This document shows positions 20,641-32,913 of a stretch of 33,171 nt of DNA, in pieces. The translations under genes and the position numbers were made by a program. The number at the start of each line of letters is the position of its first letter. The stretch's first letter is position 1. This DNA is from Lysobacterales bacterium (lineage in GTDB: Bacteria > Pseudomonadota > Gammaproteobacteria > Xanthomonadales > Wenzhouxiangellaceae): assembly GCA_022360675.1 (NCBI GenBank), contig JAKSCJ010000115.1, positions 1 to 33,171 of the forward strand, written 5' to 3'. The notes beneath the pieces are model-generated. The model searched no databases. It was given only the letters and a program-made list of their open reading frames with translations, and was not told where the DNA came from.

Positions 20641-21729
20641 TTAAATCGTGATACGTGCGGCAAGATATGCATAAAAGTCCACCAGCACCTGCTCTAAACT
20701 CACCAAGGCACCGCCCTCGGCATAAGCGCTATTCACACCTCGTTGAACGCGCTCACATATGGCCTTATCTTCAGCAAAAAATTGTTGGGTGAAAGCCACA
20801 CTTTCGGCGTCTTCACGGCCTTCATCGGCAGCTAAAGCGCCAGACTCGACCCGGCTTTCAAAAGCATTAATGGGCCGAATACTGATCCAAGCCAGCGCAT
20901 CATAGGTAATGATGGCCACAAAGCCTGGCGGCAAAGCGATGAGATAATAATGATCTTTCGGTACTTCGCTACCGCTTAGCCAATCTAACCAGCCCGGTGT
21001 GGTTTTCATTTCGCCTTCGGTTAAGGTCCATCGTGGGCCGCCAGCCACATAGTTAGCCGATTTAGTAGGCGTGATGGTTTCTAAAGTTTCTTTATGCACT
21101 TTGAACAGGTGATAGCTTTCCGCCGCATTTTCATAAATCAACTTCCAGTTAGACTGCCAATGCTCGTTCTCACCGATATGGGCATAGCGATATCGCTCGG
21201 GCTCGTAAGCTTTTAAGTATTCGTCAACCTCAGAGAGGTGTGTGGCTAAATCACTTTGTGCCGCCAAACTCACAAACACCAAACCTTGCCATACCGCCAC
21301 ATGAAACTGGGGCAAGCATATGCCCGATTTATCGATATCCGCATCACCCGCGTGGGGTAGCGCGGTTAAACGTCCTTCTTGATTGTAAGTCCAAGCGTGA
21401 TACGGGCAAATCAAACGCTCGGCCTGGCCGTAGCCTTCGTCTAAAATGGGAGTGCTACGATGGCGACACACATTAGAGAAAGCACGCAGCTCACCATCTT
21501 TGCCACGAATCAGTACAACGGGTTCACCACATAAATCAAAAGCATAATATTGATGAGCTTCGCTAACTAAAACTTCTGGGCAGGCAAAAACCCAATCGCC
21601 ATGAAAAACACTATTGCGCTCATCTTCAAACAGGGTTTCGTCGGTGTAGTAATAACCCGGTAACGCGTTGTGGGATTCAACACTGTGTTTGAGTGTTTCT
21701 ACAAATGAAGGATGTATTGCTTCCGACAT
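20641..21729 (-). CDS. Rieske non-heme iron oxygenase, alpha subunit
   Basis: The 362-residue catalytic subunit of a ring-hydroxylating or demethylating oxygenase has a Rieske [2Fe-2S] domain with Cys88-X-His90 and Cys108-X2-His111 (17 residues between). The mononuclear iron site is NWKLIYENAAESYHLFKVH, with His207 and His212. The overall pattern resembles choline monooxygenase/glycine-betaine-type members more than aromatic dioxygenases, but the substrate cannot be read from sequence. No reductase, ferredoxin or beta subunit is nearby, so it must use a partner encoded elsewhere. GAGGTG lies five bases before the ATG. It follows the cytochrome gene on the same strand but a strong hairpin separates them. 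Confidence 0.88.
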   Translation of the reverse strand: MSEAIHPSFVETLKHSVESHNALPGYYYTDETLFEDERNSVFHGDWVFACPEVLVSEAHQYYAFDLCGEPVVLIRGKDGELRAFSNVCRHRSTPILDEGYGQAERLICPYHAWTYNQEGRLTALPHAGDADIDKSGICLPQFHVAVWQGLVFVSLAAQSDLATHLSEVDEYLKAYEPERYRYAHIGENEHWQSNWKLIYENAAESYHLFKVHKETLETITPTKSANYVAGGPRWTLTEGEMKTTPGWLDWLSGSEVPKDHYYLIALPPGFVAIITYDALAWISIRPINAFESRVESGALAADEGREDAESVAFTQQFFAEDKAICERVQRGVNSAYAEGGALVSLEQVLVDFYAYLAARITI

Positions 21730-21827
21730 ATCGCACCTCAGGCAGGTATTGCACTTATCGAGTTCAAGAAAACAAACTCATAGAAATGAGCGAAATAAAA
21801 TGAGCAAAAGGACATGAAGTAAATAAT

Positions 21828-21864
21828 AAGCCGGGCAATGTGGACGAGCCACACTGCCCGGCTT
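21828..21864 (-). terminator. Long hairpin between cytochrome and Rieske genes
   Basis: AAGCCGGGCA (21828-21837) pairs with TGCCCGGCTT (21855-21864); inside, TGTGG pairs with CCACA, interrupted by one mismatch. On the minus strand it runs into ATTATTTACTT. It probably terminates the cytochrome transcript, fully or partly. Confidence 0.7.
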
Positions 21865-21880
21865 AGTTCTCGGTATTTAT

Positions 21881-24800
21881 TTATGCCGATTCATCGCCAT
21901 CGAGAACACCATCTAAATCACGATCCAAGGCCATGCGTACACCCGAGCCCGGAGGCACACAGGTGAAGGTGACTTCTTGACCTCTGAAGAATGCCATACG
22001 GCGAATGGCAAAGCGGCCAATGTCATGATCTTTAACACTATCGGGTTGATAGCGGCGGGTTTCGGGGTTGTACAGCCAGCCACGTTCTTGGCCATCAACC
22101 ACCACCTTGGCCACCAGCTCGCACTCACGCACATTGCCACCTAGAATTTTCGAGACAAAAGGCGTTGCTGCCCGTTGTTCCAGTAAAGCTAAACGCTCGT
22201 AGGCATCAAAGTTTACATAGCGCGTCAGTGTCATTTGCTGACCAACAATGGGCGCTAGGTCTGAGTCAAACTCAAACATATATTGCTCAAGTCCACGGCG
22301 AGTGGCGTCGTCGGGAATACCCACCATGCCTTCGTTGATATCGGTACCACCGCCATCGTCGCTTTCACCGTTATCGAAAACCGCACCTTTTAAGAAATTG
22401 AAGAAGGTATCGGTAGCACCATCATGCAGCACACCAAAGCCACGAATTTGCTCGCCCTGATGTTGACGGGTATCGGAAGGTAAGAAGCCGGCACGGTTAG
22501 GCAAGCCAAACATGCCTACCTTGGTATAGGCCGTACGTAACTGAGGCGTTTTGGTGATTTGATTCTCGGTGGTATGGCCACCATTGCCATCGGTACCAAA
22601 GAAACCCTGGCCAGGATCTAAGCGGTGGCAACCTTCACAAGTAAAGCCATCTTGTTGTCCGCTGACATCGAAAGCTAAACCGTCTGAGCGTCGTGCACCG
22701 TGGAAGAACTGACTACCTTTGCGAGCCAAGGGGCTTAAGGTGTTATCTAAACCACGAATAGGATTGGGTGGTAACGCCACTTGCAGCATGAAATCGGTGA
22801 AGTGTTCGATATCTTGCTCCAGCGTCATCACGGCTTCGGGCTTATTATTGGCATCCACATTTTCTGGTAAGGCAATATCCATACCGTTCAAGCCTTCAAA
22901 AGCTACGATAAAGTTTTTAAACGACAAACGTTCATCGTATTCATCGCCACTGTGGGTGCCGAAGTAACCCACTGCGCGGTCGCCACGCCAGTGCATATGA
23001 CCGGAGTTCGATAAGCCTTTCAGGGTCTGCGTGGTCATGGGGCCTTTCATGGAACCCAAGGTACGGCCATCGCCATCGCCATTGAGCACTTGTGAAGCCA
23101 AGCAACCCAGCGAGTCGGGGCCGTCGTAGATGCAATCCCACTCGATGGTGTGCTCCAGATTAATGTCGATGGGGTTACGCTTATTGGCAAGGTCGGGATC
23201 ACCTAAATCCCAAGCCAGACTATCTTGATCACCAAAGATATGGCAGCCCGCACAGCTGGCTTCACCATTGGATGAAGTGCGTTGGGCATCGTATAAAACA
23301 GCGCGACCACGCACGATGGATTCGGGCTCGGGGTTGTGCATGGCGATATGCTCAACTTCTGAGCCATTTTCTAAATCAATAACCGAAATACCATTGTCGA
23401 AACGAGTGGCCACATACGCCACTTGATTGGCCTCGTTCAACACAATGCCCGCCGGACCACCGCCGCTCACATCAATATAATTGGCACTGGCTTGACGCGG
23501 ATCGAACTCATCGCCGCTACCATCCCAAAAATGATCGTTATCTAACTGCTCGGTGGCGAACACGCCAATCCGTGAAGAACCATAGGCACTCACATACAGC
23601 CATTCACCATCGCTGCTCACCGCCATATCCAAAGGTGTGGCCAAGCTATGCTGGCGGGTTTCGGGCGTGGCTTTAAGTTGGTTGTAGTCGATATGACGAT
23701 TGATCGCCCGGGGTTTCACGGCTTCGGTATGGGGCTCGATCACGGTGATCTGCGCTTTGGCAAACGCCCCCTGTACCGTACTGCCACCAAATTCACCCGC
23801 ACCTTCAAAGCGCACATGGTTATTGGCGTCGGTGTTGCTCACATAAACATGGCCGTTCACCGGATTCACCGCCATATTAAATAACACCGTACCCACATGC
23901 TCGAAATCTTGGGTTTGTCTTAAGGTGTCGGCATTAATGGCGAAAACATCGTGATCGGGTAGATCAAAACGAATAGCGTTAGAGAAATTCCGCCCCAGCT
24001 CGTCGCGCCACTGACCTAAGTCACGATCGTACTTCACCATCATGCTGATCCAGGGCTGGAACTCACCAAAGGCGTTCACGCCCGGAGCCGGTCGGCCGCC
24101 AGGCAAGCCACCATCGGGTAAACCCTGCGGTGAGGTAATGCCATCTGCCACTTGGCATGGAAAACTGCCCAGGCCATCGTCCATAAAACCATCACAAACC
24201 ACGCCCTCGTGCACCACTGAGGTTTGGTTACCCGATTGGAACACCGCCGCATAAACGGTGAGGCCATCGGGCGCTACCGCCAATGCGCGCGGTGTGTCGC
24301 CAAACATGGTGACGATTTTCTCCGGCCGTCCACCAAATTGATAACCCGGCCGTGCGGTGTCAAAGACCCAAACATCGGCACGATCCACAGAAGCCGTGCT
24401 CAACTGCGGGTCGCCCGAACCGGCAACGCCGCGCAACGTGCGGTTTTCACGATGCTGACCACGGTGGGCGGTGGTAATAAACGCCCGCTCCTTACGACCG
24501 CCAGCAAACACAATATCGCGTGGCTCGTCGCCTACTAATAAAGTTTTAATGACACGCGGCGGTTGCGCTTTGAGATCAACAATACTCACGCTATCCGACA
24601 GGTGATTCACCACCCAGGCCTGCCCCCGTTGATTCACCGACACCGCCACAGGCTCCATACCCACGCTCACTGAAACCGGCGTTCCTAAAGCCCCTTGCTC
24701 GTCCAGCGGAAAGATCTCAATACGGTTATCCGGCGTATTCACCACGATCAGCTGTTGACCGTCAGCACTCATGGCCATGGGCCGTACCGGGCCCGATTCA

Positions 24801-24937
24801 AAGGCAATAAAGCTAGGGCTTGTGGAATCCCCAGCGGCGAGATTCATCTCGGTTTGTGGCGCGGCACTGGCGCCGATGGCCAAAGCCATCAAGCCTAAGC
24901 CCCAAGCACCGCGGCCAAAAATGTTCAATTGCGACAT
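21881..24937 (-). CDS. Secreted beta-propeller/diheme cytochrome c protein
   Basis: The 1018-residue exported protein has a signal peptide 1-25 (ends GASA). Residues about 40-540 form a YVTN/NHL-like beta-propeller (repeated blades such as PVAVSVNQRGQAWVVNHLSDSVSIVDL and PLDMAVSSDGEWLYVSAYGSSRIGVF). Residues about 540-900 form a cytochrome-c-peroxidase/MauG-like part with two heme motifs, CAGCH (562-566) and CEGCH (767-771). The C-terminus carries an EF-hand-like calcium loop DRDLDGVLDGDE (1005-1016). It is probably periplasmic or outer-membrane associated, transferring electrons to or from an oxidised substrate; the exact reaction is unknown. ATG 24937 is preferred over 24952 because GGAGGTG precedes it by four to five bases. 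The promoter overlaps two TetR-type operators, implying repression by the TetR protein at 25351. Confidence 0.85.
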   Translation of the reverse strand: MSQLNIFGRGAWGLGLMALAIGASAAPQTEMNLAAGDSTSPSFIAFESGPVRPMAMSADGQQLIVVNTPDNRIEIFPLDEQGALGTPVSVSVGMEPVAVSVNQRGQAWVVNHLSDSVSIVDLKAQPPRVIKTLLVGDEPRDIVFAGGRKERAFITTAHRGQHRENRTLRGVAGSGDPQLSTASVDRADVWVFDTARPGYQFGGRPEKIVTMFGDTPRALAVAPDGLTVYAAVFQSGNQTSVVHEGVVCDGFMDDGLGSFPCQVADGITSPQGLPDGGLPGGRPAPGVNAFGEFQPWISMMVKYDRDLGQWRDELGRNFSNAIRFDLPDHDVFAINADTLRQTQDFEHVGTVLFNMAVNPVNGHVYVSNTDANNHVRFEGAGEFGGSTVQGAFAKAQITVIEPHTEAVKPRAINRHIDYNQLKATPETRQHSLATPLDMAVSSDGEWLYVSAYGSSRIGVFATEQLDNDHFWDGSGDEFDPRQASANYIDVSGGGPAGIVLNEANQVAYVATRFDNGISVIDLENGSEVEHIAMHNPEPESIVRGRAVLYDAQRTSSNGEASCAGCHIFGDQDSLAWDLGDPDLANKRNPIDINLEHTIEWDCIYDGPDSLGCLASQVLNGDGDGRTLGSMKGPMTTQTLKGLSNSGHMHWRGDRAVGYFGTHSGDEYDERLSFKNFIVAFEGLNGMDIALPENVDANNKPEAVMTLEQDIEHFTDFMLQVALPPNPIRGLDNTLSPLARKGSQFFHGARRSDGLAFDVSGQQDGFTCEGCHRLDPGQGFFGTDGNGGHTTENQITKTPQLRTAYTKVGMFGLPNRAGFLPSDTRQHQGEQIRGFGVLHDGATDTFFNFLKGAVFDNGESDDGGGTDINEGMVGIPDDATRRGLEQYMFEFDSDLAPIVGQQMTLTRYVNFDAYERLALLEQRAATPFVSKILGGNVRECELVAKVVVDGQERGWLYNPETRRYQPDSVKDHDIGRFAIRRMAFFRGQEVTFTCVPPGSGVRMALDRDLDGVLDGDESA

Positions 24938-24951
24938 GTTCACCTCCATCA

Positions 24952-24971
24952 ATGAAACACATTTGTCTCAT
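24952..24971. promoter_or_regulatory. TetR-type operator O2
   Basis: ATGAAACA-CATT-TGTCTCAT: the 8-bp half-sites match at 7 of 8 positions across a 4-bp spacer. It lies immediately downstream of the predicted -10 of the cytochrome gene, a typical repressor position. The same half-site recurs at O1 and O3. Confidence 0.65.
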
Positions 24972-24973
24972 GA

Positions 24974-25001
24974 ATATTAATGATACACACATGTCTCGCA
25001 A
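24974..25001 (-). promoter_or_regulatory. Predicted promoter of the propeller-cytochrome gene
   Basis: On the minus strand TTGCGA (25001-24996) and TAATAT (24979-24974) are 16 bp apart. Operator O1 fills the spacer and O2 follows the -10, so repressor binding would block polymerase. The hexamers are moderate matches. Confidence 0.45.
24980..24999. promoter_or_regulatory. TetR-type operator O1
   Basis: ATGATACA-CACA-TGTCTCGC is an imperfect palindrome with the same ATGA(T/G)ACA half-site as O2 and O3. Aligned to the reverse complement of O3, 14 of 17 core positions are identical. Confidence 0.65.
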
Positions 25002-25350
25002 AATCAAATCTCTTTTTGCTTTGGATAAAAATTAGCCAGGATGAAACGCACGCAGTAAACCTGCCGCACAGCCATAAAGACAACAGCCGAGGCCGCCGGA
25101 TAGTGCGGCAAGCACGCCTTAGCAAAACGCGCCCGAATAGAAAGAATCAGGAGAAAAGGTCAGAAAAAAGCTCAAGGGAGAAGCGCCCAGCGGCAAGCCA
25201 TGGCAAGAGCCACTCAAGCCAACATCAGCCGGCAAAAAACTAAGCAGTAAAAAGCTAAGAAGAAAACCATCGGCGGTGCAGTAAGTACTCGCCGCCACAC
25301 ACAAAACAGGCGCTAACTTAGCAAAGGCGCTAACAAAGAAAGCCTGGGCC
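25002..25350. other. Gap between tetR and the cytochrome promoter
   Basis: These 349 bp hold no credible gene. Composition is A- and purine-rich on the plus strand. A 10-bp direct repeat AGGCGCTAAC occurs at 25308-25317 and 25325-25334. A probable tetR terminator lies at 25271-25296. Confidence 0.5.
25271..25296 (-). terminator. Probable terminator of tetR
   Basis: On the minus strand GGCGG pairs with CCGCC over a 15-nt loop, and the T-rich run GGTTTTCTTCTTAG follows a few bases later. The stem is short, so this is only a candidate. Confidence 0.4.
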
Positions 25351-25914
25351 CTATGGCGTTGAGCCCTGCGGAGTAAGGCCGTGGATCAGAGTGCGGTATA
25401 CCCAAGCCGCAGCCGCACTGGCGCCCACTTGCTGCTCTCCAATCATTTGCCATGCGGCATAAATTAAATTATTGAACGCCAAGACCACCCAATCGGCGGG
25501 GATTTCGCGGTCAATCGCCAATTCTTGCTGGCTGGCTTGAATCAGCATTTTCAGCTCATTATTTTGTCGATTCAGCTGCTTAATGACTTCCTCATCGCTG
25601 ATGGAAGGCTGACGAATCAAAAAATAATAGCGATCACCCATAGGTACGATGGCCTCAATGGTGAGGCGCAAAGCATCCAAAGAAGAAGTGGCCGCTGTCA
25701 TCACATGGGCGGTGGCGTCGTCGGTGGCTTGTATCGCCTCTAAACTCAGTGCTCGCAATAGATCTTCACGGCTCGGAAAGTGGCGGTATAAAGTGGCGCG
25801 GCCAATACCAGCCGCCTCGGCCACTTCAACAAATGAAGCGCCAGGGTTCTCGGCCAATAACACCGTAGCCGAATCCATCAACGCTTGGCGTGTCGCGCGT
25901 TGCCGTGCATCCAT
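25351..25914 (-). CDS. TetR-family transcriptional regulator
   Basis: The 187-residue repressor has an N-terminal TetR DNA-binding domain (MDARQRATRQALMDSATVLLAENPG, then the helix-turn-helix VAEAAGIGRATLYRHFPSREDLL at about 31-53) and a helical C-terminal ligand domain (about 60-185). ATG 25914 is preferred over a TTG at 25935: it gives a normal TetR N-terminus and AAGG precedes it. A palindrome matching those at the cytochrome promoter (O1, O2) lies at 25935-25954, just upstream of its own start, which points to autoregulation and control of the cytochrome gene and perhaps of the divergent DUF6502 gene. The ligand is unknown. Confidence 0.92.
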   Translation of the reverse strand: MDARQRATRQALMDSATVLLAENPGASFVEVAEAAGIGRATLYRHFPSREDLLRALSLEAIQATDDATAHVMTAATSSLDALRLTIEAIVPMGDRYYFLIRQPSISDEEVIKQLNRQNNELKMLIQASQQELAIDREIPADWVVLAFNNLIYAAWQMIGEQQVGASAAAAWVYRTLIHGLTPQGSTP

Positions 25915-25934
25915 AGACCTTCTCAATATTAACA

Positions 25935-25954
25935 ATAAGACACTTTTGTATCAT
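25935..25954. promoter_or_regulatory. TetR-type operator O3 in the tetR/DUF6502 divergent region
   Basis: ATAAGACA-CTTT-TGTATCAT has the half-site and 4-bp spacer of O1 and O2; 6 of 8 half-site positions match. It lies 21 bp upstream of tetR and 162 bp upstream of the divergent DUF6502 gene. Confidence 0.65.
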
Positions 25955-26115
25955 AAAATGCATTGTTTGTCCATGCATGTTATGGGCTCATCAAACCGCC
26001 TGCTGACTTTAATGGTTTTTCATAAGGCTTGTTGATAAGGGTCGAAGTTTTTATATTGTCTGCCGAACTTATTTTAACGGGCGATGCCAACAGGCATATA
26101 AGGGACGTCTTAACC

Positions 26116-26865
26116 ATGTCGGAAGATGCAAAGGAGGCAGCGGAAGCGCTGTTAGAAGAAGTATTTATTGCGCTCTTACAAATTGCCGATCGACATGGCA
26201 TTACCATCAAGCGTATGGCCGAGCTACTCCCCATTGCTCAAGTTCAGGCGATGCGCGCTCAAGGCATGACCCAGCAAGACATCATGGCGGCCAGTGGTTA
26301 CGCACTAAAAACCGTACGCAAATTACTCGCAGCCGATATTCCCAACGATAACTACAACCGCATCGAACGCTTTGTGGGCTCGTGGATGAGCGACCCTAAC
26401 TTCCCCCAATCTTTACCGCTCAATGGTGGTCGTTTCCCTAATTTTCATGATGTGGTGTTCCGCTACGGCCGCGAGTTTACGCCCGGTGCCTTACAGCGCA
26501 TTTTGGTGGAACAAGCCCTAGCCACTGTTGAAGACGAACAAATCACCTTAACTGGACGCGCCGTGTTGGGTCAGTCCACCACCGAGCGTTTAGAATCGGG
26601 TGCGATCAGCCTAGGTAATTTCATCAATACGGTGGCACATAACATTAGCGGCCACCAACCCCCACTGCTTGAACGACGTATTTGGTCTCATTCTATTCCC
26701 CCCGATCGCATCCCCATTGTGCGTGAACAAACACTCTCGGCGGCGCTGGAGTTTAAAGAGAAAATTGTCGCGATACTCAGCGCTGAAGAAGATCCAGAAG
26801 CAATGGAGCAAACGGATAGCTCACTGGCCGCAGGGATTGGTATTTACTGGTTTGAACGAGGGTAA
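26116..26865 (+). CDS. DUF6502-like protein, copy 2 (putative HTH protein)
   Basis: This 249-residue cytoplasmic protein is paralogous to the product of 2048-2908. The HTH here is clearer (MTQQDIMAASGYALKTVRKLLAADIPN, about 60-86). It shares the central WMSDP motif (WASDP in copy 1), a TPGALQRILVE segment matching VTVNTVLDRLLE, NFINTVAHNIS matching RLVNTIQHNVS, SIPPDRIPIVREQ matching SIPVEALPVYRQA, and the C-terminal AGIGIYWFERG. I chose ATG 26116 because AGGGA lies upstream and the extension to 26029 is not conserved in copy 1. As in copy 1, the next gene on the same strand encodes a small exported protein. Function is unknown; DNA binding is inferred from the HTH. Confidence 0.73.
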   Translation: MSEDAKEAAEALLEEVFIALLQIADRHGITIKRMAELLPIAQVQAMRAQGMTQQDIMAASGYALKTVRKLLAADIPNDNYNRIERFVGSWMSDPNFPQSLPLNGGRFPNFHDVVFRYGREFTPGALQRILVEQALATVEDEQITLTGRAVLGQSTTERLESGAISLGNFINTVAHNISGHQPPLLERRIWSHSIPPDRIPIVREQTLSAALEFKEKIVAILSAEEDPEAMEQTDSSLAAGIGIYWFERG

Positions 26866-29596: not shown

Positions 29597-32500
29597 TTAC
29601 AACGCACAGCTTTGTGATTGACCATTAAGATTGCTCTTCGCACATACCAAACCCAATTTCCATTGTTTGATATACGCCTGGCCGTTCACCATGGTGTTGG
29701 TGTTTAAGTGGCTCGTGAGATACCACAAACGCTGAATTTCGTTTTTCTTCGCCGGTCCGCGGTTGGCATCGCGGAATCGTTGTTGCAGATAAAACGGCGG
29801 AATCGATTGATTAAACAAGCGTACTTCCACACCGGCAACCTTTTGTAAGGTGGTTGCATCTAAATTCACCGAATAACGAATTTGATCGGCACCGGTTAAG
29901 CTGGGATCGGTGTAGTAAGGATCGTTCGCCGCTTCACCATGGGTAATGGATAACTCTTGAATATATTTCGAATCAAACTGGGTTTTAAAGAACTCAGGGT
30001 CATAGCCCAACGGACGTAAACGGTTATCTTTAACATGGGTGACCCGACGCAGGAAGCTAGTGGTGAAATCACCCGCTGAATCGGTGATGAGCTCTTGATA
30101 AATCTGTGCCTGATCCTGGCGTTCAATCAACTGATAATGGGGTTGATACGCCTTAGGGTTTTTAATGGGCAATTCACTGGGCAACGGTGTGGGCATACGT
30201 TGCGATAAGGTCGCGCCATCCACCACTACGCCCAAGTCATTGGTACAACCTGAACACCATAAGGTATTGCCGCTGGCATCCACTAAGCGATATTCCAAAA
30301 TCACGCGCCTAAAGCCCACACCCGAAGGCAAGTAATGGCCCGCTTTATTGTGCACCGTTACATCGGTGGTAATGGTATTGCCATCCACTTTGGGTGCTTG
30401 AACACTGATGGTGGCGGTTTCGTTCTCGGCAATTTCAATGAATTGATCGCGCGTATGGGTTAATGCGGGCTTAGGCGCACCATTCATATAGTCGATCTGG
30501 CGTAAGCCCAGTAACACCGGGAACTGCTGGAACATTTCATTTAAGAACACATTCAAACCCAGCAGGGTATGGCGGGCAAAACCCTTTTGCTTGGTCAGGC
30601 GAATGTCTTCATCGGGCAATCGATTGGTGGTGGGCGGGAAGCTGTTGCTATCTTCAATATTGGCAATATAACTATTTAAAGGCTCGCCTTCGAAATGGGT
30701 TTTCATATGGCAGTCTTGACACGACTGCGCATGTTCTTTCGACCAAGAAAATTGACTATTACTCCATTCCAAACCCGTGGTTTGTTCATACGAACCAGGT
30801 AAGGGTTTGCCATCGTTGGTAAACACAGGCAATAAAATATTATGACAAGAGCTACACAGTTCAGACGATTTAATTTGTGCAGCAAATTTAGGTGTTACAC
30901 CCAAAGCGTGTTCCATAGGTTTAGGAACAATGGTGTCGTCACCGAAGGGACCATAAACTTCATCGCCGGGGCCAGTAATAAAGTTGCCGGTAAAGCCAGC
31001 TTCGGTGCCTAAGCCTTCATCGCTAATGTGATGACACACCGCACATGAAATACCATCGCGCGCTAAACCACCGTAATCGCCCGCATGGGGGGCTGCATCG
31101 GTGTTTTGGTATTGGGTGACATTACTCAATGCAAAGGGCTGACCAAAAGGGACTTCTTTAGGCGGTGGCACGGGAAAGATATCGCGACACTCATCGCCTT
31201 GATTTTGGGTATCGATGGCTAATTGACGTTGGCCCATCACACCATGGCAATGCAGGCAGGTGTTCTCGATACAGGTGGTGAGCTCGGGTAGATTATTGGT
31301 TTCACTTTGCAGTTGCGAGAAAAAGATGGGATCGCGCCCGGCCAAACCCATGGGTGAGGTCCGCCACGTGGCATAGGGCGATAAATTTACCTCTTCGCCC
31401 AGCTTATTGGTAAACACCATATTAGGCGCTTGCGAGTTCGACACCGTGGCATCGTGGCAACCCATGCATTGGTCCGAGGTTAAAAACTGACCCGGCCCGT
31501 GCGCTGTCGAGACTTTATGATCGAAGGTTTCAGCTGGCAGGCGTAAATCCCAAGCGGCGCTGAAGTTCACCGGCGAGATCTGATTGTAAAAGGCCACAAA
31601 GTTAGGATCGGCCTGATTGAGTGGCGTTGAAAACGGTGCCGGTCGCTCGGTGCCACGCGTCGCGCTGGGCTTGGCCGCTAATAACTGTTCACGGGCAGCC
31701 AAGGGCATATCATGCTTGGCATTGGGCGTGATGGCACGCGCCTGGCGGAGCCTACGCTGTGGATAGAAATGATATTGAATACCGGCGGAAACCACATTTT
31801 CTAGCGAAGAATAGGTACTTTCTGAAGCCGCCGAAGCGTGGCAATTGATGCAATAGTTACCAAACGAGTTATACGGATATACCGTAATGGGCTTGGTATC
31901 GTAGGTTTGACCATCCACCACATACTTACTGGCGGTGTTGGTGGGATACCAGGCCGGATCGGGCGCACTGGGTTTGGGTGGAATGGTATCCACACTGCCC
32001 GCTGCCGATGCATTCACAATGGGTGGATTACCACCGCCTTCGTTGCCCACCCAATACCAACCATCGTGGGAAGCTTCTTGGTCTTTCACCATGACCGCCC
32101 AAAAGATGTTGTTGTCATCCATTTGTTGCGTAGGTATCGATAAGCAAGAGTTATCGCCTAAATCCACCGTGGGTTCGGTGATCGACATCATTTCTTTGAC
32201 GATCACCGCACCATCGGGAATCTCCCCTTGGCGATCGTTACATAGCCAATCCACCATCTTGGGCGAATAATAAATCCGCACCGCCGGATGCACACCGTAA
32301 GACTGAGCGCCACTGGCAATTTTTCCATTAGCAGTAGAACCCACCACCGGACCAGTAAAGCGCCAATCGCGATCGGCCACCCAGTCGCGATAGCTATGAT
32401 TCCCTAGCCAGTCGCCAAAGCGTTCATCGTATTCATTTTTTTGTTCCAGTTGTAACAAGCTGGCGGGCATCCAACTGGGCTCGGGGGTTCGTTGGCGTTT

Positions 32501-32692
32501 TGCTTCTACCGCACAGAAGGCCTGAACATCCTTCATAATCTGCACTTCATCACCTCGCTCACACACCCAATCGTTAGGATCGCCCTTGGGCGGTGTGGCA
32601 GCAGCACAGGTGTGACCTAAGGCAACACCAAGCACAACGAGAAGCAAAGACGTAAGCCTTTGCTTTTTCCGCAGTAAGCGTTGTTTATTCAT
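29597..32692 (-). CDS. Hexaheme c-type cytochrome with P460-like N-terminal domain
   Basis: The 1031-residue exported protein has a signal peptide about 1-31 (ends TCAA or CAAA). Residues about 40-290 look like cytochrome P460 (VRIYYSPKMVDWL, IPDGAVIVKEMMSI, then DGWYWVGNEGG and the terminal CINCH at 281-285). The middle region carries five more heme motifs: CMGCH 409, CLHCH 479, CAVCH 550, CSSCH 613, CQDCH 658. The C-terminal third is a beta domain with HNKAGHYLPSGVGFRRVILEYRL (781-803), common in large multiheme cytochromes. Six hemes in total. It is probably a periplasmic or extracellular electron-transfer or oxidising enzyme; P460 relatives oxidise hydroxylamine, but the substrate here is unknown. 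ATG 32692 has GGGA five bases upstream; 32728 would add 12 residues before the signal peptide. Convergent with the DUF1028 gene. Confidence 0.85.
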   Translation of the reverse strand: MNKQRLLRKKQRLTSLLLVVLGVALGHTCAAATPPKGDPNDWVCERGDEVQIMKDVQAFCAVEAKRQRTPEPSWMPASLLQLEQKNEYDERFGDWLGNHSYRDWVADRDWRFTGPVVGSTANGKIASGAQSYGVHPAVRIYYSPKMVDWLCNDRQGEIPDGAVIVKEMMSITEPTVDLGDNSCLSIPTQQMDDNNIFWAVMVKDQEASHDGWYWVGNEGGGNPPIVNASAAGSVDTIPPKPSAPDPAWYPTNTASKYVVDGQTYDTKPITVYPYNSFGNYCINCHASAASESTYSSLENVVSAGIQYHFYPQRRLRQARAITPNAKHDMPLAAREQLLAAKPSATRGTERPAPFSTPLNQADPNFVAFYNQISPVNFSAAWDLRLPAETFDHKVSTAHGPGQFLTSDQCMGCHDATVSNSQAPNMVFTNKLGEEVNLSPYATWRTSPMGLAGRDPIFFSQLQSETNNLPELTTCIENTCLHCHGVMGQRQLAIDTQNQGDECRDIFPVPPPKEVPFGQPFALSNVTQYQNTDAAPHAGDYGGLARDGISCAVCHHISDEGLGTEAGFTGNFITGPGDEVYGPFGDDTIVPKPMEHALGVTPKFAAQIKSSELCSSCHNILLPVFTNDGKPLPGSYEQTTGLEWSNSQFSWSKEHAQSCQDCHMKTHFEGEPLNSYIANIEDSNSFPPTTNRLPDEDIRLTKQKGFARHTLLGLNVFLNEMFQQFPVLLGLRQIDYMNGAPKPALTHTRDQFIEIAENETATISVQAPKVDGNTITTDVTVHNKAGHYLPSGVGFRRVILEYRLVDASGNTLWCSGCTNDLGVVVDGATLSQRMPTPLPSELPIKNPKAYQPHYQLIERQDQAQIYQELITDSAGDFTTSFLRRVTHVKDNRLRPLGYDPEFFKTQFDSKYIQELSITHGEAANDPYYTDPSLTGADQIRYSVNLDATTLQKVAGVEVRLFNQSIPPFYLQQRFRDANRGPAKKNEIQRLWYLTSHLNTNTMVNGQAYIKQWKLGLVCAKSNLNGQSQSCAL

Positions 32693-32913
32693 GACCTTCC
32701 CTACCTTTGCATTACAATGTAACGACAAAAACTATTTATATATAGAAAAAATCACTAAAATTAATCATACACCCCAGAGCCAAGCCACTGCGACCCAAAC
32801 AGTGACCAGAGCTCTCTTTTAGTGAGTTTCCTCGCTCTTTTATACAAACCTTAAGATCATGTGATTTCAACCCCAAGCGTTTCCCTACGCTCAGGCTCTA
32901 CGGATACTCAAGC

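Follow-up and report, generated by a model that had tools for sequence, protein, structure and literature searches.

Several described systems resemble parts of the locus studied here. LfrR of Mycolicibacterium smegmatis (PDB 2V57/2WGB) is a TetR repressor that consists of a single domain and has a ligand pocket; its target, as outlined in PMC5895659, is the gene of an efflux pump. FatR binds an 18-bp palindrome located downstream of the transcription start and ahead of the Shine-Dalgarno sequence, as outlined in PMC3814354, and FatR/Bm3R1, which is displaced by fatty acids, is described as repressing an oxidative enzyme gene (CYP102) as well as its own gene. In Lysobacter enzymogenes, LeTetR is described as affecting fatty acid hydroxylase gene expression, in this case positively (PMC7287984). 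Among enzymes, FadCcp (PA2077/PA2078, oleate diol synthase) is described as di-heme, with two CXXCH motifs, and as acting on fatty acids (PMC4496055).

We analyzed a 33,171-nucleotide stretch of DNA (the window) that encodes a predicted TetR repressor, P0001, next to a gene for a predicted secreted propeller and di-heme protein, P0002. The system appears to be an ordinary local TetR regulon, of a known kind but with new members. P0001 resembles LfrR in having a single TetR domain and a ligand pocket; the two proteins are about 26% identical, and the predicted local target of P0001 is the propeller di-heme protein rather than a pump. No transporter gene, a feature of LfrR orthologues, was seen next to the window tetR, whereas a close homologue in genome G007 does face a pump, of the HlyD/RND type. 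The arrangement proposed here, repression of an oxidative enzyme gene and of the repressor's own gene, is that described for FatR/Bm3R1. One of the window sites, O2, is placed much like the FatR palindrome as described; the window tetR, with tandem sites, is likened to FatR by description, FatR acting on CYP102, while no P450 or CYP102 was found among the eight window proteins scanned around tetR. LeTetR, by its description, shares with the window TetR a tie to a fatty-acid-hydroxylase gene but acts positively. FadCcp is a possible functional analogue of P0002, likened to it by description: the two CXXCH motifs are common to both, and the FadCcp abstract mentions no propeller.

No description of the operator proposed here, ATGRNACA-N4-TGTNYCAT, was found among the open-access papers listed in the literature searches. 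The regulon is notable in that distant genomes appear to have retained this operator, whereas the oxidative genes under its control have changed. Using sequence alone, the analysis yields a predicted operator for an uncharacterized TetR subfamily and a short set of predicted targets, and assigns an uncharacterized propeller di-heme protein and a membrane fatty-acid hydroxylase to the same regulon. Since both enzymes would share a regulon, the question of their substrate becomes testable through the TetR inducer.

The predicted repressor and its candidate operators

The tetR gene (25351..25914, minus strand, ATG start) encodes a predicted TetR-family repressor of 187 amino acids. P0001 contains a TetR_N helix-turn-helix (PF00440, E 4.1e-10, 39.7 bits against a cut-off of 24), and its predicted model is all-helical, with eight helices, a C-terminal ligand/dimer domain, and a pLDDT of 90.4; known TetR structures align to the model over residues 1-186. 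By sequence, the nearest solved relative is LfrR (E 4.1e-16, residues 3-156), which was also the top Foldseek match of the model, at 26% identity. In VIA-align, several TetR proteins, KstR2 and FadR among them, tie with LfrR (Z 17-18).

The first-pass annotation had reported three related palindromes with a common half-site around tetR and the adjacent cytochrome gene. A search of the window for ATGAKACA-N4-TGTMTCAT with up to three mismatches recovered exactly these three sites at the coordinates reported, while shuffled sequences gave 0.23 matches on average and reached three in 0 of 100 shuffles. Site O2 (24952..24971, no strand assigned; ATGAAACACATTTGTCTCAT, one mismatch) lies downstream of a promoter-like −10 and upstream of the cytochrome gene's Shine-Dalgarno sequence. 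O1 (24980..24999, no strand assigned; ATGATACACACATGTCTCGC, two mismatches) overlaps the best promoter-like match at its −10, and O3 (25935..25954, no strand assigned; ATAAGACACTTTTGTATCAT, one mismatch) is located 20 bp upstream of the tetR ATG (25914). O1 and O2 are spaced 28 bp start to start, and both precede the cytochrome ATG (24937). The common half-site was borne out for one half of each site, which is perfect; the other half is imperfect in all three, and the right half of O1 is degenerate.

The sole σ70-like match directed towards the cytochrome gene, TTGATT-16-TATCAT (25007 to 24980), has its −10 within O1. The overlap of O1 and O2 with the cytochrome promoter that was originally suggested is the weaker part of the observation; O2 is downstream of this −10. 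Since σ70-like matches were no commoner in the region than in shuffles (2 found, 1.5 expected), they are not promoter evidence, and the promoter position is a guess. It is very likely that O1, O2, and O3 serve as operators for the neighboring TetR.

A second operator locus in the own genome

The genome scan with ATGAKACA-N4-TGTMTCAT that the first-pass annotation had proposed was carried out on the 518 contigs (3.91 Mb) of the genome from which the window comes. Four places matched with at most one mismatch, compared to 0.14 expected under an independent-base model: O2, O3, and two sites on contig C281, at 516-535 and 551-570, the latter being a perfect match to the palindrome. The exact core ACAN4TGTMTCAT occurred six times, always within O1, O2, O3, or the two C281 sites (3.3 occurrences expected; reversed controls, 0 and 1). 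Because near-perfect sites and cores are confined to these five sites, there is one further locus beyond the window, which the regulated set named earlier had overlooked. Two additional matches with two mismatches, at C219:2337 and C411:2878, are both inside long ORFs; they were rejected as operators and taken as background.

The C281 tandem pair starts 15 bp before the ATG of a gene for a secreted protein (L016, minus strand), and the contig ends within this gene. One end of contig C110 carries 257 bp of the same gene, with 244 bases identical, and continues through the gene's 3′ end to a membrane fatty-acid hydroxylase gene 15 bp further on (PF04116, E 2.2e-28; histidine motifs HRFAH, HTVHH, and HHRVH). 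The gene beyond the hydroxylase on C110 is presumably trpE and those on the other side, on C281, presumably trpG-D-C, as named from their ORFs. The end overlap and the fit of these flanks suggest that C281 and C110 form one locus, in which the hydroxylase gene probably follows the secreted-protein gene. At 95% identity, the overlap suggests strain variants in the assembly.

The secreted protein matches Pfam Cass2 below the cut-off (E 1.9e-4; 22.1 bits against 27), and among 299 genomes its relatives were found in the own genome only. The two-gene unit of the Cass2-like protein and the hydroxylase appears inserted between trpE and trpGDC (G000 C281:1-500, C110:7708-9091; L016, L121). A match of the C110 protein to globin (E 0.47) was dismissed as noise.

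Co-occurrence of operator and repressor in other genomes

A phylogenetic profile was compiled for 61 genomes, the own genome and 60 relatives, with TetR homologues accepted at E up to 1e-10. Homologues were present in 2 of the 61, the own genome and G007, and sites with at most one mismatch occurred in the same two genomes; the reversed-pattern control was found in 1 of 61. If TetR and site were unrelated, the chance of such a coincidence would be 1 in 1830. Taken with the counts in the window and in the genome, the exact co-occurrence with TetR makes it extremely improbable that the sites arose by chance or are structural palindromes on which no regulator acts, even though O1 has two mismatches and the promoter-like matches do not exceed those in shuffles.

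In G007, two sites 35 bp apart lie between the TetR gene and a divergent HlyD/RND efflux pair. The pair of sites (L037 8649-8703) contains TTGYAT-17-TATGAT boxes on both strands, an arrangement that looks like a symmetric divergent promoter. A class-wide profile search (homologues in 2 of 369 genomes) identified a TetR of 26% identity in G416, where two variant sites, ATGGWACA-N4-TGTWCC, again 35 bp apart, separate the TetR gene from a divergent Rieske oxygenase gene. A search of G416 and its relatives (2 of 116 genomes) yielded a TetR of 39% identity in G681; one site overlaps its start, and the gene shares an operon with that of a fatty-acid hydroxylase 41% identical to the C110 hydroxylase. 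Finally, an order-wide profile search (4 of 328 genomes) yielded a TetR in G141 (E 4e-57), with one site at its start; a gene for a DUF418/HGSNAT-like membrane protein overlaps the end of this tetR. All four homologues were found via the protein alone, not via the site.

A site with at most one mismatch to ATGRNACAN4TGTNYCAT lies no more than 100 bp ahead of the TetR start in every close family member, five in total (own, G007, G416, G681, and G141). When the five upstream regions were shuffled, the score was matched in 0, 0, 0, 0, and 1 of 2000 shuffles. A more distant homologue from the order-wide search, in G253 (E 5e-16), had no site upstream (best match, six mismatches; shuffle value 0.94). 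With a looser pattern, a few matches were found away from TetR in G007 and G416, at a rate like that of the reversed control. A palindromic site near the repressor's own gene, a feature of the TetR family, is thus present in the window as O3, with equivalents at all 4 other close homologues, which strengthens the original proposal of autoregulation.

The tandem pairs and the single O3 could in principle have different owners: TetR would regulate itself alone through O3, while O1/O2 and the C281 pair would be bound by a different regulator, encoded elsewhere and recognizing a similar site. Operators can be common to TetR regulators whose recognition helices are alike, and O3 is single whereas O1/O2 and the C281 sites are tandem. 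Nevertheless, no paralogue of P0001, and hence no second TetR homologue, was found in the own genome at E up to 1e-10, tandem pairs directly adjoin homologous TetR genes in G007 and G416, and a C110-type hydroxylase is within the TetR operon in G681. We consider a separate regulator improbable. The rarity of the sites, their co-occurrence with TetR, the family-wide upstream sites, and the independent gene links make the assignment of the sites to the window TetR well supported, and with it the predicted autoregulation and the predicted link to the cytochrome gene.

Remote homologues of the repressor

A TetR scan of 84,980 species genomes, from which the best 80 of 288 relatives were kept, gave remote relatives only, the best of these 80 being 33% identical (E 3e-20). 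Upstream regions were checked at the 79 of the best 80 loci that were long enough, together with 2242 control windows. The 18-base core was found with at most one mismatch before 2 of the 79 loci, both from Microtetraspora (L040, L041), compared to 0.13% of controls, and with at most two mismatches before 5 of 79, compared to 1.1% of control windows.

An initial inspection for palindromes had taken in 30 of the 80 loci plus L037, 31 in total. A homologue on a Streptomyces antimycoticus plasmid has a perfect palindrome upstream (0 of 2000 shuffles). The best upstream matches had two mismatches in Microtetraspora fusca (shuffle value 0.001), three in M. glauca (0.0125, with the tetR start coordinate assumed to equal that of L041), and three in Paenibacillus urinalis (0.0385); upstream of the Nocardioidaceae locus L039, with its start approximated, the best match had six mismatches (0.78). 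In the P. urinalis plasmid locus (L135 3983-7781), the 33%-identical TetR gene directly precedes an annotated cytochrome P450 gene of about 1062 codons, a length like that of CYP102 fusions, and the imperfect palindrome ATGATAGATCATACTATCAT is upstream.

The propeller di-heme cytochrome gene

The predicted main local target (21881..24937, minus strand) encodes P0002, a predicted secreted protein of 1018 amino acids with a propeller and two CXXCH heme motifs, CAGCH at 562 and CEGCH at 767. The N-terminal propeller has Lactonase/YncE-type matches. The C-terminal part alone matches PF03150 (CCP_MauG) below the cut-off (E 0.0016; 19.5 bits against 25.6). Identification as hydrazine synthase beta/gamma was rejected (45 bits against an NCBIfam cut-off of 560, over the propeller part only), and a match of the C-terminus to a PDB toxin chain was noise (E 0.27).

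Control of this gene by TetR, as the first-pass annotation had it, is favored by the sequence evidence: near-perfect sites occur only before tetR, the cytochrome gene, and the C281 locus, and the operator travels with TetR. In the locus of the G045 relative of the cytochrome gene (54% identical), the best match to the operator had five mismatches, and the best match in the locus of the G007 relative, with three mismatches, is not ahead of the cytochrome gene; neither relative is preceded by an operator, and no TetR of the same kind was seen in the loci examined. The evidence for the TetR-cytochrome link therefore comes from the own genome. As far as seen, the cytochrome gene would have joined the regulon in the own lineage only.

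Proposed mechanism of regulation

The sites, their rarity, their co-occurrence with TetR across genomes, and the gene order on each contig were read from the sequence. On this basis, we infer binding, repression, promoter positions, the C281-C110 join, and a ligand class. We think it highly likely that TetR is a ligand-released dimeric repressor that acts on ATGRNACA-N4-TGTNYCAT and controls itself, the cytochrome gene, and the C281/C110 genes. TetR (25914-25351) would bind the 20-bp palindrome as a dimer. From O3 it would repress its own gene, from the tandem O1/O2 sites the gene of the propeller di-heme cytochrome, and from the C281 tandem pair the gene for the Cass2-like secreted protein, probably with the following hydroxylase gene. 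As the sites cover promoter elements or the transcript start, bound TetR should stop RNA polymerase, either excluding it or acting as a roadblock. A ligand would free TetR from DNA; by analogy with LfrR, FadR, and FatR, our guess is a lipophilic or cationic amphiphilic molecule.

Tandem sites are 35 bp apart at C281, G007, and G416, compared to 28 bp at O1/O2. In the 35-bp pairs at C281 and G007, the half-sites contain TTGTAT-17-TATGAT, and so the operator could hold both promoter hexamers. At the 28-bp O1/O2 pair and at the single sites, the operator lies over the −10 of a promoter-like match, over the first bases of its transcript, or over the start codon (G681, G141). All these layouts would allow simple repression.

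A broader reading is tentative, and we hold it to be somewhat doubtful. A TetR subfamily found from Gammaproteobacteria to Actinomycetota may have retained its 20-bp operator and exchanged one target for another, the targets being oxidative enzymes and pumps that are not related to each other (Rieske oxygenase, P450, propeller di-heme protein, membrane fatty-acid hydroxylase, and RND efflux). Each of them would respond to a single class of toxicant, lipophilic and perhaps cationic, for which the propeller di-heme protein would be a secreted oxidase or peroxidase; the half-sites of the 35-bp pairs would serve as −35 and −10 elements, forming a repressible promoter cassette.

The Rieske oxygenase, DUF6502, and other window genes

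The mechanism proposed above leaves out DUF6502 and includes the Rieske gene only as a possibility, whereas the first-pass annotation had considered both as further targets. The window Rieske oxygenase gene (20641..21729, minus strand; GbcA/CntA-like) is downstream of the cytochrome gene on the same strand, and the G416 Rieske oxygenase, divergent from TetR across a tandem operator pair, is 37% identical to its product, which suggests a functional tie of Rieske to TetR. Directly after the cytochrome stop codon, between the two genes, there is a strong terminator-like hairpin (21827..21865, minus strand; 17-bp stem, U-rich tail; −31.5 kcal/mol, z −7.8), and the window scan with up to three mismatches revealed no operator before the Rieske gene. 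Co-transcription of the Rieske gene is therefore doubtful, as is its membership in the regulon, and what survives of the earlier suggestion is the G416 arrangement. When 299 genomes were searched for close relatives of this Rieske protein at E up to 1e-50, 1 genome gave a match, the Rieske itself.

In the case of DUF6502, O3 is about 160 bp from the ATG (26116), no site is present at the gene's own promoter-like match (26032-26059), and no DUF6502-like gene was seen beside homologous TetR genes in ORF lists read by eye. DUF6502 was accordingly rejected as a target, and this part of the first-pass proposal was abandoned. A single local redox regulon, in which TetR would also control the Rieske gene and perhaps DUF6502, is on this evidence unlikely.

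The window contains two DUF6502 genes, at 2048-2908 and 26116-26865 (Pfam 1.3e-16 and 3e-9, respectively). A large, secreted-looking multiheme cytochrome with six CXXCH motifs is encoded at 29597-32728 on the minus strand, and a small secreted protein with repeated NSAGEGTG-type units at 1454-2029.
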